Assembly: GCA_017656255.1 (NCBI GenBank)
Contig: JACDOE010000010.1
Span: 1-36,399 of the forward strand
Length of the DNA: 36,399 nucleotides
Reading direction: 5' to 3'
Source: Bacillaceae bacterium
Lineage (GTDB): Bacteria > Bacillota > Bacilli > JACDOE01
The notes beneath the pieces were generated by a model. That model did not search any database and had not been told where the DNA came from. It saw only the letters and a list, made by a program, of their open reading frames with translations. Positions 12,180 to 32,905 of this stretch are shown piece after piece. Position 1 is the first letter of the stretch, and each line of letters begins with the position of its first letter. A program made the position numbers and the translations under genes.

Positions 12180-12809
12180 TCACACATGTTTTTTTGACTT
12201 TTCCATTTGAAGCATGTTCTGATATTCCTGCGGCGTATCAAAACTCATCACAAAACGGAGATCCAGTCGATGCCTTAGAAAATCCTGATCCGTCATCGGG
12301 ACATAGTAAATGGTATGCAAAAGATCTTCATCTTTGCACAATCCTCTGCTGATCAGTTTGGAAATCCGGTCCGCACTCTTTTTATGATAAATAGCCTGCA
12401 AAAGATAAGGCCTGCCGCCGATGATCGGAATGGCGGCATCCGCCCTTTCTTGTTTGCGAGATTTCTGCATCAGGGAAGCGGCGTCAGGTGACAGAAACGG
12501 CATGTCACACGCAGTCACCCAGACATCCTGATATTTGGCGAGGGACAGAGCAGCGTGTATGCCACTGATCGGCCCTTTTCCCTGGTAATAATCCGTAATA
12601 ATGCGTACCGTATTTCCCAGCACTTTCAAGAAAGGTTTCGGATCGTTGCTGACCAGAATGATTTCATCCGATACCTCCCTCATCAGACGGATTTGCCGCT
12701 GAACCATAATTTCACCATGAAAAGGGAGCAATGCCTTATGGGATCCTTCCATTCTCCGGTTTTCACCGCCTGCCAGTATTACACCCGTCAGCTTGTTGAT
12801 TTCACCCAC
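12180..12809 (-). CDS. mobA: Molybdenum cofactor guanylyltransferase MobA
   Basis: MobA joins GMP to molybdopterin-molybdenum to make the MGD cofactor of DMSO-reductase-family enzymes such as nitrate reductase. The nucleotidyltransferase signature GVILAGGENRRMEGSHKALL is at the N-terminus. KGPISGIHAAL, TACDMPFLSP and the PIIGGRPYLLQAIYHK segment follow. The reading frame begins with GTG at 12809, but the AAAAGGGGG tract is very close, so the exact start is uncertain. An FNR-like box lies upstream (12852-12867). No molybdoenzyme gene lies in the window. Confidence 0.9.
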   Translation of the reverse strand: MGEINKLTGVILAGGENRRMEGSHKALLPFHGEIMVQRQIRLMREVSDEIILVSNDPKPFLKVLGNTVRIITDYYQGKGPISGIHAALSLAKYQDVWVTACDMPFLSPDAASLMQKSRKQERADAAIPIIGGRPYLLQAIYHKKSADRISKLISRGLCKDEDLLHTIYYVPMTDQDFLRHRLDLRFVMSFDTPQEYQNMLQMEKSKKHV

Positions 12810-12823
12810 CCCCTTTTAACAAA

Positions 12824-12867
12824 AATATAAACCGGCTCATCCCGTTAATGCTGTGAAATACATCACG
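12824..12867 (-). promoter_or_regulatory. FNR-like box and -10 for mobA
   Basis: TGTGA-AATACA-TCACG (12852-12867) matches the Bacillus FNR consensus TGTGA-N6-TCACA except for the last base. On the minus strand a TATATT hexamer (12824-12829) would put the start point near 12817 and the centre of the box near -42. That is the position of a class II activator. Confidence 0.65.
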
Positions 12868-12903
12868 GATTTTCACAACCTGTTCAAAGATGATTCCAAA
12901 AGT

Positions 12904-12947
12904 TGTGACAAATGTCACACTTGTTTTTTCTGTATGTAGTGTATACT
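12904..12947 (+). promoter_or_regulatory. FNR box and promoter of fnr
   Basis: TGTGA-CAAATG-TCACA (12904-12919) is a perfect FNR/CRP-type palindrome. TATACT (12942-12947) is a good -10 that predicts a start near 12954, placing the box centre at about -42. This suggests positive autoregulation of fnr. Confidence 0.8.
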
Positions 12948-12989
12948 AAACATAACGATTAAAACCCTGTACGATAAGGAGGATTCCAG

Positions 12990-13715
12990 ATGAGTTCTTC
13001 CATGTTGCAAACGGATCGCCCCTATTCACTCAAAAATACCAATCTGTTTTCCGAGGAAACCTATAACAGATTAAAGGAAATCATGTATGAGCAGAAAGTA
13101 GAAGCCGGAACCTATATTTTCTGGGATTCCGACCCGGCTGACAAATTGTACTATATCAAAAAGGGACACGTCCGGATTACCAAATCCACAGATGACGGCA
13201 AAGAGTTTATTCTTTACCTGTTTCAGGACGGAGATCTGTTCGGGGAATGGGGCAGTTACGAGAATGCTCGCTACAGTTATAACGCTGTTGCTGCTGATGA
13301 ATGTGTCCTCGGCGTCGTTCAGCAACGGGACCTGGAAATCCTCCTCTGGCAACATGGTGAGATGGCCGTTGAACTGATGAAATGGATGGGAATCATGCAC
13401 CGCATCACCCAGACCAAATTCCGGGATCTGATGATGTACGGCAAAACCGGTGCCCTCTGTTCCACCCTGATTCGCCTGGCCAACACATATGGTCAGGAAA
13501 CACAGGAAGGCACGGTGATCTCTCGGCATTTTACCAACACAGAACTGGGTGACATGATCGGTGCAACCCGGGAAAGTGTCAACCGGATTCTCAGCGATCT
13601 CCGGTCGAAAAAAGTGCTCCGTTATGAGGACGGGAACATTCTGATCATGGATATTGATTATTTAAAAGATGTCTGCCACTGTGAAGAATGTCCACTGTCA
13701 GTCTGCCGAATTTGA
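12990..13715 (+). CDS. fnr: Fnr, oxygen-sensing Crp/Fnr-family activator
   Basis: Global anaerobic activator. An N-terminal cyclic-nucleotide-type beta-barrel (residues about 20-130) is followed by a dimer helix and an HTH with FTNTELGDMIGATRESVNRIL. The C-terminus ends DVCHCEECPLSVCRI; C231, C234 and C239 have the same CX2CX4C spacing as the Fe-S ligands of Bacillus subtilis Fnr, and D near residue 145 (FRDLMMYGK) could be the fourth ligand. C229 is an extra cysteine. The ATG follows AAGGAGG. Divergent mobA, the downstream stress gene and fnr itself all have FNR-like boxes. Confidence 0.93.
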   Translation: MSSSMLQTDRPYSLKNTNLFSEETYNRLKEIMYEQKVEAGTYIFWDSDPADKLYYIKKGHVRITKSTDDGKEFILYLFQDGDLFGEWGSYENARYSYNAVAADECVLGVVQQRDLEILLWQHGEMAVELMKWMGIMHRITQTKFRDLMMYGKTGALCSTLIRLANTYGQETQEGTVISRHFTNTELGDMIGATRESVNRILSDLRSKKVLRYEDGNILIMDIDYLKDVCHCEECPLSVCRI

Positions 13716-13737
13716 TCCAGAATATCGCACACAACAG

Positions 13738-13775
13738 GCAAACGGATCTTTGAAAATGATTCGTTTGCTTTTTTT
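13738..13775 (+). terminator. Terminator after fnr
   Basis: GCAAACGGATC (13738-13748) pairs with GATTCGTTTGC (13758-13768) with one mismatch position, followed by seven T. Confidence 0.8.
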
Positions 13776-13778
13776 GTA

Positions 13779-13827
13779 TGTGACAATCGTCATAGCTAAA
13801 TTTTTCCGGGAGGCTTAGACTTAAAAT
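13779..13827 (+). promoter_or_regulatory. FNR-like box upstream of the usp gene
   Basis: TGTGA-CAATCG-TCATA (13779-13794) differs from the FNR consensus by one base. A weak -10 TAGACT (13816-13821) would place the box near -41.5. A better TAAAAT at 13822-13827 would place it near -47. Confidence 0.5.
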
Positions 13828-13907
13828 GGGAAGGGATTAATTGATCCTCATCAAGTTATCTTAACGTGCCCCGACCCGAATGATGAACAAGTCTGGGAGG
13901 GAGAATC

Positions 13908-14342
13908 ATGTTGACATTTTATTCTCGCATTCAGGTGGCATACGACGGATCGGAGTTGAGTGAAAAAGCTCTGGATATGGCCATTACACTGGCCAAACAG
14001 GATAAACAGGTACAATTGGGCGTGACGCACGTCATTACCTCATCGTCCCATCATGATGTCTATGGAATGCCTGAAGTCGATCTGCTGGAATCGGCCCGGG
14101 AAGAAGCCCATAAACTCATGGAAGACGTCAAAAAGAAACTGGACGAATTACCGAACAAAACAAGAACCTATATCCTGGAGGGCAATCCGGGCAAAGTGCT
14201 TGTGGATTTTGCCAAAAAGAACGATGTGGATCTGATCATTATCGGAAGCCGGGGACTCAGCGGATTTAAGGAATTTTTCATGGGAAGCGTCAGTCACCAT
14301 GTGGTCCAGAAATCACACTGTCCGGTACTTGTCGTCAAATAA
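13908..14342 (+). CDS. Universal stress protein (UspA family)
   Basis: Single-domain Usp protein of 144 residues. The ATP-binding signature G-2X-G-9X-G-S is seen in GSRGLSGFKEFFMGSVS near residues 115-131, and the VAYDGSELSEKAL start is typical, so it should bind ATP and dimerise. GGGAGG lies seven bases before the ATG. It is flanked by terminators, and an FNR-like box lies upstream. This suggests induction under oxygen limitation. Confidence 0.92.
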   Translation: MLTFYSRIQVAYDGSELSEKALDMAITLAKQDKQVQLGVTHVITSSSHHDVYGMPEVDLLESAREEAHKLMEDVKKKLDELPNKTRTYILEGNPGKVLVDFAKKNDVDLIIIGSRGLSGFKEFFMGSVSHHVVQKSHCPVLVVK

Positions 14343-14368
14343 TCGGCCTCTCTTATTGAATATATACT

Positions 14369-14396
14369 AAAAAAGCCCGTTAGCAGGGGCTTTTTT
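14369..14396 (+). terminator. Terminator after the usp gene
   Basis: AAAAAAGCCC (14369-14378) and GGGCTTTTTT (14387-14396) form a symmetric stem with an eight-base loop; the T side directly follows the stem. Confidence 0.85.
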
Positions 14397-14422
14397 AGTG
14401 TATTTAACGATGATTTTAAAGA

Positions 14423-14458
14423 AAGAACCCGCCCCTTTGGGGACAGGTTCTTCTTTTT
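14423..14458. terminator. Bidirectional hairpin between usp and hsp20
   Basis: AAGAACC (14423-14429) pairs with GGTTCTT (14446-14452), with an inner CCCC-TTT-GGGG stem. Seven T follow on the plus strand. The minus-strand side is also T-rich, so it can terminate hsp20, which ends at 14469. The GGGGACAGGTTCTT arm recalls REP-like repeats seen in other Bacillota. Confidence 0.6.
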
Positions 14459-14468
14459 TTAATACCAA

Positions 14469-14927
14469 TCACGAAGTCAGGCCATTAATTTTGATTTTTT
14501 TCACTTTCCGCTCTTTCAGTTTCGGAATATGGATGTAGAGGACACCATGTCTGGTTTTCGCCTTTATGTCATCCATGTTGGCATCGTCCGGGAGCGTAAA
14601 CGATCTGCGAAATGCGCCATATTTCCGTTCAACCCTGTGAGTTTCTTCATCCTCTGTTGTCTCTTCCATACGCTTTTCCCCTTTCAGGGTGAGCAGATTG
14701 CCGTTCATTTCGATTTCAATATCGTCGGGTTCGAGGCCGGGGACTTCTACTTCGACCACATATTTTTTTGACTTCTCTTTAATATCAATTGCCGGCACAA
14801 AGGAACGTTTCTGAGTAAAAAAGCCGTCGTCACTGAAGAAACGTTCAAACATCTGGTGAACCTCATCCTGAAAAGGAGCCAACCAGTTGTCGTCCTGTCG
14901 GTGGTGATCCCGTTTGATCAAAGCCAT
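14469..14927 (-). CDS. Hsp20/alpha-crystallin small heat shock protein
   Basis: ATP-independent holdase chaperone of 152 residues. The alpha-crystallin domain spans roughly residues 45-140: VVEVEVPGLEPDDIEIEMNG, ERKYGAFRRSFTLPDDA, and the A-x-x-x-GVLYIHIPK signature near the end. A C-terminal IKI motif fits the I-x-I/V assembly tail. The ATG at 14927 follows GGGGAGGGG; an in-frame ATG at 14948 would precede that site. An FNR-like palindrome lies at 14991-15006. Confidence 0.92.
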   Translation of the reverse strand: MALIKRDHHRQDDNWLAPFQDEVHQMFERFFSDDGFFTQKRSFVPAIDIKEKSKKYVVEVEVPGLEPDDIEIEMNGNLLTLKGEKRMEETTEDEETHRVERKYGAFRRSFTLPDDANMDDIKAKTRHGVLYIHIPKLKERKVKKIKINGLTS

Positions 14928-14963
14928 TTTGAACCCCTCCCCTGTCATATTAGTTACACTTTA

Positions 14964-15006
14964 GTTGTACCACACCGGTTGAAATCAGGGAGTGACATTC
15001 GTCACG
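14964..15006 (-). promoter_or_regulatory. FNR-like box and extended -10 for hsp20
   Basis: AGTGA-CATTCG-TCACG (14991-15006) keeps the GTGA-N6-TCAC core of the FNR consensus. On the minus strand TGG-TACAAC (TACAAC at 14964-14969) is an extended -10 that places the box centre near -41.5. The box directly abuts the T tract of the ectD terminator. Confidence 0.45.
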
Positions 15007-15037
15007 AAAAAAGAGCCCGGCTGGCATACCGGGCTCT
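15007..15037 (-). terminator. Terminator of the ectABCD operon
   Basis: AGAGCCCGG (15012-15020) and CCGGGCTCT (15029-15037) with an eight-base loop, then six T on the minus strand. It lies 28 bases after the ectD stop. Confidence 0.88.
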
Positions 15038-15065: not shown

Positions 15066-15977
15066 TTATTCAATGGGCTTCAGTGGTTTAATCGTGCGTT
15101 CCCCGAGAAAGTCCGGGCGGGGATTCTGTCCGGAAAACGGCTGTACCAGTCCGTTTTCTACACTGTTATACACCATAAAGATATTACTTCTCGGATAGGG
15201 TGTGATGTTTCCGTTCGAACCGTGCATAATGTTACACTCAAACAGCAACAGGGAACCGGCCGGGCCTGTCGGTGTATCAATCCCGAATTCCTTCACCATT
15301 TTCGTCAGGCTCTCATGATCCGGAACCCCGTACTCCTGCTTCTTCAGAGACTGCTTGTAGTGGTCATCGGGCGTTTGCCCCACACAGGAGACGAAGTATT
15401 TGTGAGAGCCCGGCAGCACCATGAGCGGGCCGTTGAAATGATAGTTGTCTTCGAGAGCGATGGAACAACTGATGGCCCTCATCCGCGGCATCCCATCCTC
15501 CACATGCCAGGTTTCAAAATCGGAATGCCAGTAGAATTCTTTTCCGTTAAAACCGGGTTTGAAATTGATTCGGGATTGATGAATGTACACCTCACTGCCC
15601 AGCAGCTGCATGATCATGTCGAGGATTCTCCGGTCACGTGACAAACGGTTGAAAATGTCATTCGTCTCATGGATCTTGAACACGGATCGAATCTCATCGT
15701 TTTGTGGTTCACGAATGATTTCAGGAGCGCTGGTATGTTTACTTTCTTCCCAGACGTTTCGCAGTTCCTGGCGCCATTTCTGCACCTCATCGTCGGAGAA
15801 GAACTTTTCGAAAAACAGGTAGCCGTTTTTCTCATAGAAATCCAGCTTTTCCTGATCCAGCGGGCCCTGCTTCAACTGATCGCCTGCTGAGAAAATAACC
15901 GGGTCTTTTCTCTCCAGGATCCTGGGCCTGTCGTTAACACGTGATGGATACAGATCTGTCAGTTCCTTGACCGTCAT
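15066..15977 (-). CDS. ectD: Ectoine 5-hydroxylase EctD
   Basis: Non-heme Fe(II)/2-oxoglutarate dioxygenase that converts ectoine to 5-hydroxyectoine. The family signature is intact: FYWHSDFETWHVEDGMPRMR supplies H151 and D153, and H252 in IMHGSNGN completes the iron triad; PYPRSN supplies the 2-oxoglutarate-binding arginine. The 303-residue length is normal. GGAGAG precedes the ATG by seven bases. It is the last gene of the operon, 111 bases after ectC, separated by a stem-loop that may tune its expression. Confidence 0.97.
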   Translation of the reverse strand: MTVKELTDLYPSRVNDRPRILERKDPVIFSAGDQLKQGPLDQEKLDFYEKNGYLFFEKFFSDDEVQKWRQELRNVWEESKHTSAPEIIREPQNDEIRSVFKIHETNDIFNRLSRDRRILDMIMQLLGSEVYIHQSRINFKPGFNGKEFYWHSDFETWHVEDGMPRMRAISCSIALEDNYHFNGPLMVLPGSHKYFVSCVGQTPDDHYKQSLKKQEYGVPDHESLTKMVKEFGIDTPTGPAGSLLLFECNIMHGSNGNITPYPRSNIFMVYNSVENGLVQPFSGQNPRPDFLGERTIKPLKPIE

Positions 15978-16007
15978 AGAATCACTCTCCTTTTTTAGTT
16001 TATATAT

Positions 16008-16049
16008 GTAAGCAACCGGCGCCCATTAAATATGACACCGGTTGTTTAC
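16008..16049. other. Intercistronic stem-loop between ectC and ectD
   Basis: GTAAGCAACCGG (16008-16019) and CCGGTTGTTTAC (16038-16049) pair over 12 positions with one mismatch around an 18-base loop. No T tract follows on either strand, so it is not a simple terminator. An RNA stability or processing element is more likely. Confidence 0.55.
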
Positions 16050-16088
16050 AGCTGTGGTTCCCTGTTTGATTTGATTCAGAGTTCCTGG

Positions 16089-16475
16089 TCAGTCTTCAAT
16101 TATCGGGTAGGTTCCTTCTTCATCGTGTACTTCTTTTCCGGTAACGGGCGGGTTGAAAACACAGACCATACGCATTTGTTTTTTGGCACGCAGGTAATGT
16201 TTTTCATGGCCGTCAAGGGCATACATGGTTCCGGGTTTGATCGGATAGATTTTCCCTTCACCCAGAACCTCGATTTCCCCTTCGCCTTCGACACAATAGA
16301 CGGCTTCAAGGTGGTTTTTGTACCAGATATAGGTCTCGGTTCCTTCCTTGATGATCGTATCATGCAGGGAAAATCCCATGCCGTCTTTTTTCAGCAAGAG
16401 TCGTCTGCTGACCCAGTTACCGCCGTCAACATCGTCTTCTGTTCCCAGAATATCTTCTAAATTTTTGACAATCAT
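16089..16475 (-). CDS. ectC: Ectoine synthase EctC
   Basis: Cupin-fold cyclase that closes N-gamma-acetyl-diaminobutyrate to ectoine. The 128-residue protein begins [21 protein letters not shown] and contains [13 protein letters not shown], the YWYKNH-EAVYC core and [16 protein letters not shown], all typical of EctC, with its iron-binding glutamate, tyrosine and histidine positions. It lies 57 bases after ectB. Confidence 0.97.
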
Positions 16476-16532
16476 GTTGATTAAGATCTCCTCTCACTTT
16501 GTGATTCAATAGAAATTTAATTCAGTCCCTCT

Positions 16533-17804
16533 TTATTTAACGGTAGCGGCGACACTTTCACGCAAAATTTCAAGCCCGCGCTCCAGCCCATCTTCATCGA
16601 TGACCAGCGGAGGCAACAATTTGGCCACTTCACTGTCCGGTCCGGACGTTTCCATAATCAGGCCACGCTGGAAAGCCGCTTCACAAATTTTATCCGCCAG
16701 TCCGTCGACACCGCAGGCGATCCCCTGCATCAGACCGCGTCCGCGGACTTCACCCTTGATCTGCGGAAATTCTTCGACGATCTGTTTCAGATGGCGGGTG
16801 ATTTTCTCCCCTTTTTGCTGAATTTCATGGCTGAACGAATCGTTTTCCCAGTAACTGAGTGCTTCCGTTGCCGTCACAAAAGCCAAATTGTTACCACGGA
16901 ATGTTCCGTTGTGTTCGCCTGGCTCCCAGACATCGAGCTCCGGTTTCATCAGCGTAATCGCCATCGGGAGCCCGTATCCGCCGATGGATTTGGACAGGCA
17001 GACAATATCCGGTTCAATACCGGCCGGCTCAAAGCTGAAAAAGGTTCCGGTACGCCCGCATCCGGCCTGAATATCATCCACAATCAGCAGAATGTTGTAA
17101 CGGCGACAGATCTGTTCAACCTTCTTCAGCCATTCAAAGCTGGCCGCATTGATTCCGCCTTCCCCCTGGACCGTTTCCAGAATGACAGCGGCCGGCAGGT
17201 CCACCCCGCTTCCGTTGTCTTCGAGAAAACGTTCCAGATAACGGGTTGTATCTTCCCCTTTTACATAGTTGTCAAAAGGCATAAAATAACTGTTATTTAA
17301 AGGGATTCCGGCTCCTTTACGCTTAAACGCGTTTCCGGTAATGGACAGGGAACCGATGGTCATCCCGTGAAAGGCATTGGTAAAACTGATCACCTTATCC
17401 CGGCCCGTCACTTTGCGGGCAAGCTTCAGGGCACTTTCCACCGCGTTGGTACCGGTGGGTCCCGGAAACATGACTTTATATTCAAGGTTACGCGGTTTTA
17501 AGATAACCTCATCAAATTTTTTAAGAAAGGCTTCCTTGGCGTTGGTCGCCATATCTAGACTGTGCGCGATTCCGTCCTCCATAATGTATTCGACAAGCTT
17601 CTCTTTGAGGCGCGGATTATTATGGCCATAGTTCAGCGCACCGGCTCCGGCAAAAAAGTCAATGTACTCGTCGCCATCCCGGTTCCAGAGTTTATAACCT
17701 TTCGCTCTGGTAAACACCGTGGGAAAACTGCGACAATAACTGCGAACTTCGGATTCCAGATTTTCAAAAATTTGCATTGGAGATGCAGCTTCTTCAACTT
17801 GCAT
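16533..17804 (-). CDS. ectB: Diaminobutyrate--2-oxoglutarate aminotransferase EctB
   Basis: Class III PLP aminotransferase that makes L-2,4-diaminobutyrate from aspartate semialdehyde using glutamate. Visible features are [19 protein letters not shown], the FTNAFHGMT segment, the PLP aspartate in [15 protein letters not shown], and the lysine near residue 272 in [14 protein letters not shown]. The start is uncertain: the ATG at 17816 abuts GGAGGT with no spacer, while the ATG at 17804 is 13 bases away. An internal ATG at 17777 also fits the family's usual N-terminus. It follows ectA by 28 bases. Confidence 0.95.
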
Positions 17805-17832
17805 ACAGATATACATACCTCCTGAAATTTTT

Positions 17833-18417
17833 TTAGGACAAATGATGTTTTCTGAACGGTCCGATACGGAATGTCATTTCCGGCTCATGCTCATCTCCCG
17901 GAAAGACTTCCTCGGAAAAACATTCCTGAACTTTGCATTCAGTGTCCATTTCCCGAGCGAGTTTACGGAATAATGACTGAGAAGGAATATTGGAAGGTGT
18001 GACGGTTGCCTCCAGGTAGCGAACATCTTTCAACTGCTCACGACTCAGCAAATCTTTCAACAGGGTCAGTCCCAATCCTTTTCCCCGTTCTGATTCTGCC
18101 ACGGCTACCTGCCATACAAAAATAACGTCGGGTCTGGTTGGAGGACGAAATGCGGAAACAAAACCTACGATTTCTCCGTCGTCGGATTCAGCCACCACAC
18201 AGGTGTCACGGAAAAACTTGCACATCATAAGATAACTGTAAGAAGAATTCAAATCCAGTACTCCCGTATCACGAATCAAATGCCAGATCTCCGAACCATC
18301 TTCGACCTCCGGTTCTCGGAGAACATATTCTTCAGAAATATCAGAATAGAGCTTATTTTCAGTTATTTCCAATGATACCACCACTGCATGTAAAGATTTT
18401 GACGTACAAAACACCAT
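17833..18417 (-). CDS. ectA: Diaminobutyrate acetyltransferase EctA
   Basis: GNAT-fold enzyme that acetylates diaminobutyrate at the gamma-amino group with acetyl-CoA. Family motifs: the [20 protein letters not shown] segment, [17 protein letters not shown], the CoA-binding RGKGLG loop, and [20 protein letters not shown]. The ATG at 18417 directly follows GGGGAG with no spacer; internal starts such as the TTG at codon 16 after GGTGGT are possible, and family alignment only clearly begins near residue 30. First gene of ectABCD. Confidence 0.95.
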
Positions 18418-32797: not shown

Positions 32798-32905
32798 ACG
32801 ACCACACGTCCTCCATTTCCTATCATTCCGTCATCTCTGAATTCTGTCACATCAATCTGCAGACTCAGAAACATGTCCTCTCTGGCATGCTCATCCACCC
32901 GGTAT

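Follow-up and report, generated by a model that had tools for sequence, protein, structure and literature searches.

Four neighbouring promoters in a 36,399-nt stretch of a Bacillaceae genome (hereafter the window) are probably activated under low oxygen by Fnr bound at class II sites. In the model that we propose, once oxygen is depleted, the Fnr encoded in the window, as a dimer carrying 4Fe-4S clusters, would bind TGTGA-N6-TCACA boxes centred at -41.5 or -42.5. Bound Fnr would then activate the sigma-A polymerase at promoters that have a -10 element and no good -35. The targets in the window would be fnr itself, mobA (molybdenum cofactor for molybdenum enzymes), a universal stress protein gene (usp) and a small heat-shock protein gene (hsp20). 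We infer oxygen sensing, binding, activation and the identity of the reader alike from sequence. The window lies on contig 11 of a 3.41 Mb genome of 36 contigs (G000), and the 100 genomes drawn for comparison are all related to it only at the level of class.

The features on which the model is built are listed in Table 1. A sequence-only reading of the window had proposed the four boxes, and its coordinates and mismatch counts match the sequence exactly. It had also placed the box centres near -41.5; predicted -10 elements stand at gaps of 22 (fnr, mobA) and 21 (usp, hsp20), and the predicted centres are thus -42.5 and -41.5, respectively. Provided that its predicted -10 is correct and translation begins at the GTG at 12809, mobA has a leader of only about 8 nt. 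Another one-mismatch match, TCTGAATTCTGTCACA at 32836-32851, lies outside the four-gene cluster.

Table 1. Boxes, promoter elements, terminators and genes considered in this study. Positions are those of the window unless a G000 contig is given.
Feature	Position	Strand	Details
mobA-like molybdenum cofactor guanylyltransferase gene	12180-12809	-	NCBIfam MobA models, best E 1.9e-31, below curated cut-offs
mobA -10 hexamer TATATT	12824-12829	-	gap 22 from box
Fnr-type box for mobA	12852-12867	-	TGTGAAATACATCACG, written CGTGATGTATTTCACA for mobA; 1 mismatch; predicted centre ~-42.5
Fnr-type box for fnr	12904-12919	+	TGTGACAAATGTCACA, perfect palindrome; predicted centre ~-42.5
fnr -10 hexamer TATACT	12942-12947	+	gap 22 from box
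fnr, Bacillus-type Fnr	12990-13715	+	C231-C234-C239, D146, recognition helix TRESVNR
Intrinsic terminator of fnr	13736-13776	+	fold -16.7 kcal/mol, z -5.7; ends just before usp box
Fnr-type box for usp	13779-13794	+	TGTGACAATCGTCATA, 1 mismatch; predicted centre -41.5
usp -10 hexamer TAGACT	13816-13821	+	gap 21 from box
usp, universal stress protein, 144 aa	13908-14342	+
hsp20, alpha-crystallin small heat-shock protein	14469-14927	-	start corrected to 14927
hsp20 extended -10 (TGG-TACAAC)	14964-14969	-	TG extension, gap 21 from box
Fnr-type box for hsp20	14991-15006	-	AGTGACATTCGTCACG, written CGTGACGAATGTCACT for hsp20; both outer bases differ; predicted centre -41.5
Intrinsic terminator of upstream ectD-like gene	15012-15037	-	ends 5 bp before hsp20 box
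EctD-like PhyH	15066-15977	-
Ectoine synthase EctC	16089-16475	-	Pfam E 1.4e-62
EctB-like aminotransferase	16533-17816	-
EctA-like acetyltransferase	17833-18417	-
Cys-less Crp/Fnr paralogue, divergent from norB	G000:C9:15308-15934
Cys-less Crp/Fnr paralogue, upstream of hcp	G000:C6:132255-132863

Could all four boxes be chance palindromes? The motif taken by itself leaves room for this, since allowing up to two mismatches gives 23 matches to TGTGA-N6-TCACA in the window where 16.7 are expected, which is not an enrichment. Motif counting alone could therefore not support the claim; a box with a correctly spaced -10 element does. For 263 genes of the window's genome we scored 250 bp of upstream sequence with a box matrix built only from sites of other genomes, adding at gaps of 20-23 the score of a -10 weight matrix that is our own approximation, and took 20,000 Markov-generated upstream regions as background. 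The resulting P values were below 5e-5 for fnr, 5e-5 for mobA, 3.5e-4 for usp and 1.35e-3 for hsp20. Among the 263 upstream regions these promoters ranked 1, 6, 11 and 14, in the same order, but the sample is enriched for regions picked for holding boxes, so it is the Markov P values, and not the ranks, that bear the argument. Many of the other top scorers are boxes before the further regulon genes of this genome named below, or before their divergent neighbours.

The spacing between box and promoter points in the same direction. Around 140 oriented boxes, with loci fetched by their spacing pattern left out, gaps 21 and 22 had 10 and 8 hexamers, respectively, that match TATAAT in at least five of six positions, whereas the other gaps from 5 to 49 averaged 0.63 each; a pile-up at these two gaps only is what class II activation would give. 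The class II pattern was found 13 times in the window's genome, a few of the matches falling inside genes, and never in the reversed control; in 12 Bacilli genomes that carry fnr the counts were 156 and 31. Together with the boxed usp relatives described below, these results leave next to no probability that all four boxes are accidental. Two other ways of reading the sites were rejected. GTGAC-N4-GTCAC, considered as a special sub-box, has three exact matches in the genome, but its one-mismatch counts are under the control (72 vs 84). The Rex operator TTGTGAA-N4-TTCACAA is approached only by the fnr box, with three mismatches, and about three such matches are expected by chance.

The regulator itself fits the boxes. 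The window Fnr has 241 aa and the Crp/Fnr fold, with cNMP-like and HTH domains, and its nearest named relatives are from Paenibacillus. Its C-terminal CxxCx4C motif (C231-x2-C234-x4-C239) is common to close Bacilli relatives, among which D146, in the RDL of the dimerisation helix, is invariant; this residue presumably corresponds to D141 of B. subtilis Fnr, the aspartate that acts as fourth ligand. From this likeness to Bacillus-type Fnr, oxygen sensing by a 4Fe-4S cluster can be inferred. The recognition helix TRESVNR is retained in the closest Bacilli homologues. Because R-E at the two specificity positions of this helix goes with G3/A6 in the half-site (PMC1274295), R180/E181 predict a TGTGA half-site for the window Fnr.

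The window's genome has three further Crp/Fnr genes, and an alternative is that the boxes are read mainly by Cys-less Crp/Fnr paralogues of HcpR/DNR type, perhaps responsive to NO, so that the signal would be nitrosative stress and not oxygen. Two such paralogues, closely similar to each other, carry the helix SRETVSR, which is very similar to that of Fnr, and they adjoin hcp and norB, genes that bear the same kind of box. Moreover, HcpR of Desulfovibrio recognises wTGTGAnnnnnnTCACAw (PMC1274295). The window system resembles the HcpR regulon in its box and in the boxed hcp and NO genes of its genome, but its regulator has the C-terminal CxxCx4C, whereas the cysteine motif of FNR is missing from HcpR proteins (PMC1274295). 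Speaking against the paralogues as main readers, fnr itself has a box, in Paenibacillus both fnr and mobA do, and the oxidase and mobA targets suit oxygen limitation. We consider this alternative improbable and take the window Fnr, not a paralogue, as the more likely reader; the two paralogues probably have an NO-related role and may read some of the Fnr boxes too.

Control of fnr and mobA is the firmest part of the proposal, and both are very probably true Fnr targets. The two genes are likewise arranged divergently in two genomes of Paenibacillus, where the interval between them holds two boxes, both at gap 21 from a -10 element. Beyond the window, perfect boxes in class II position precede the cytochrome oxidase genes COX2-COX1 (ba3 type by reading) and a pilus/secretion operon with an MshEN/T2SSE ATPase. 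The class II pattern also finds a second usp, hcp, ric (named by reading), mobA and fnr, and precedes a small membrane protein gene that follows a sulfide:quinone reductase-like gene. A further perfect box, the same 16-mer as the fnr box, precedes a PAS-GGDEF-EAL protein, with a poor class II -10; of the other perfect boxes, one falls within a hairpin resembling a terminator and another within prophage-like DNA. The boxes at the PAS-GGDEF-EAL and MshEN/T2SSE genes (G000:C1:763827 and G000:C3:228141; loci L151 and L155) raise a possible link of Fnr to cyclic-di-GMP and pili. Although narG was looked for and is absent from the window's genome, in one relative (G041) the narG next to fnr has a perfect class II box at gap 21, and in another (G039) a homologous oxidase beside fnr has a box at the same gap. 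As a separate observation, a formate dehydrogenase-like molybdopterin oxidoreductase of the window's genome (G000:C9:22056-24146, minus strand; L152) contains one in-frame TGA at codon 144 (NRT-*-HAPSVTGL), which falls where FdhF-type enzymes have selenocysteine, making it a candidate selenoprotein.

For usp, we have good grounds to regard the gene as a true Fnr target. In the window both usp and hsp20 would be separate transcription units, since the terminators of their upstream genes abut their boxes. The second usp of the genome, on contig 1, has a class II box and the same terminator-box layout, and among the closest homologues six more Usp genes with boxes at gap 21 were found in five other genomes (two in G101 and one each in G033, G102, G103 and G109) of two other Bacilli families, f27 and f12. 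All eight boxed genes belong to one Usp subfamily. On the Usp tree the boxed state needs 4 changes against 7.6 in shuffles, with one of 500 shuffles as low. Boxes are missing from several close Usp paralogues that share a family with the boxed ones, and the right half of the box is degenerate in G102 and G103. Fnr was confirmed in G033, one of the five other genomes; there, in another Bacilli family, some 5.5 kb separate the class II boxed usp from a nosZ-like gene, and the operon of the latter also carries a box (G033:C8:703821-712281). The usp leader of the window also contains TTGATcctcATCAA (13841-13854), a perfect E. coli-type FNR consensus. Its presence is probably due to chance: it has 19 matches in the genome, the 15 of them inspected elsewhere each fall within a predicted reading frame, and TGTGA is what the R-E helices of the examined Crp/Fnr proteins would predict. 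We therefore rejected it as a site.

The case of hsp20 is more delicate. Its start is most likely at 14927, preceded by the Shine-Dalgarno sequence GGGGAGGGG, and not at the ATG at 14948 of the ORF listing. The site is the weakest of the four: the -10 is weak, the two outer bases of the box deviate, and no box was found before any of the 28 homologues examined besides the window's own. One may thus argue that Fnr controls fnr, mobA and usp while the hsp20 box is a coincidence and another promoter drives the gene, the more so as the genome has three copies of GTGAC-N4-GTCAC, which is about the chance level (expectation from 4^-10, by hand). On the other hand, a window with its some 30 genes is expected to hold only about 0.04 such promoters by chance, the gap is exactly 21, hsp20 sits beside fnr, and no match to CIRCE, a CtsR operator or a sigma-70 promoter was found upstream of it. 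Coincidence at hsp20 is therefore unlikely, though it keeps appreciable weight, and Fnr control of this gene, for which the evidence comes from the window's genome, is plausible: we lean towards hsp20 being a true target. An ectoine cluster (15066-18417, minus strand) adjoins hsp20.

How does this gene set compare with known regulons? In B. subtilis, an Fnr with a C-terminal cysteine cluster motif acts at TGTGA-N6-TCAC-type boxes near -41.5, and fnr is autoregulated. The window shares the C-terminal Cys motif, the box type, the box at fnr itself and the spacing, but its genome has no narG, and the set includes mobA, Usp, Hsp20, cytochrome oxidase, GGDEF-EAL and pilus/secretion genes. In the DosR hypoxia regulon of M. 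tuberculosis, low oxygen induces alpha-crystallin and Usp proteins together, a pairing that recurs in the proposed low-oxygen set of the window. DosR, however, belongs to a two-component system driven by haem sensors, whereas the proposed regulator here is of Crp/Fnr type. A closer parallel in regulator family comes from Alphaproteobacteria. The small heat-shock protein RLV_1399 of R. leguminosarum is induced about 50-fold in microaerobiosis in an FnrN-dependent manner (PMC11784457), FnrL of D. shibae activates Usp genes (PMC5398030), and both Usp and Hsp20 are induced in microoxia in B. diazoefficiens (PMC6515984). Stress protein control by FnrN, FixK2 and FnrL resembles the system predicted for the window in its use of FNR-family activators. 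It differs in phylum, in their TTGA-N6-TCAA box as opposed to TGTGA-N6-TCACA, and in the arrangement of the sensor ligands.

The sequence-only reading had interpreted the four promoters as a class II Fnr regulon, and spacing, like sites across the genome and footprints for fnr, mobA and usp all support it at the sequence level. It had also held that FNR control of usp and hsp20 would be unusual for Bacillota. This view needs adjusting for usp, whose boxes span several Bacilli families; the hsp20 box is seen in this genome only. Searches of the open literature returned no relevant report of Fnr-family control of Usp or small heat-shock proteins in Bacillota, which is weak evidence because few subscription papers were covered.

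The regulon is of an ordinary kind and its interest lies in its content, Usp being a recurring Fnr target in Bacilli. We see an even chance that the class II Fnr regulon has a Usp subfamily, found in several families of Bacilli, as a standing member, and that a small heat-shock protein was added to it in this lineage, giving Bacillota a stress module for oxygen limitation that is based on a Bacillus-type Fnr and otherwise resembles those of Alphaproteobacteria and mycobacteria. Because boxed usp genes recur across families, the link can be tested in culturable Bacilli species. The Fnr regulon of Bacilli, here in a genome without narG, would then reach beyond respiration to protein-protecting and dormancy-type genes.
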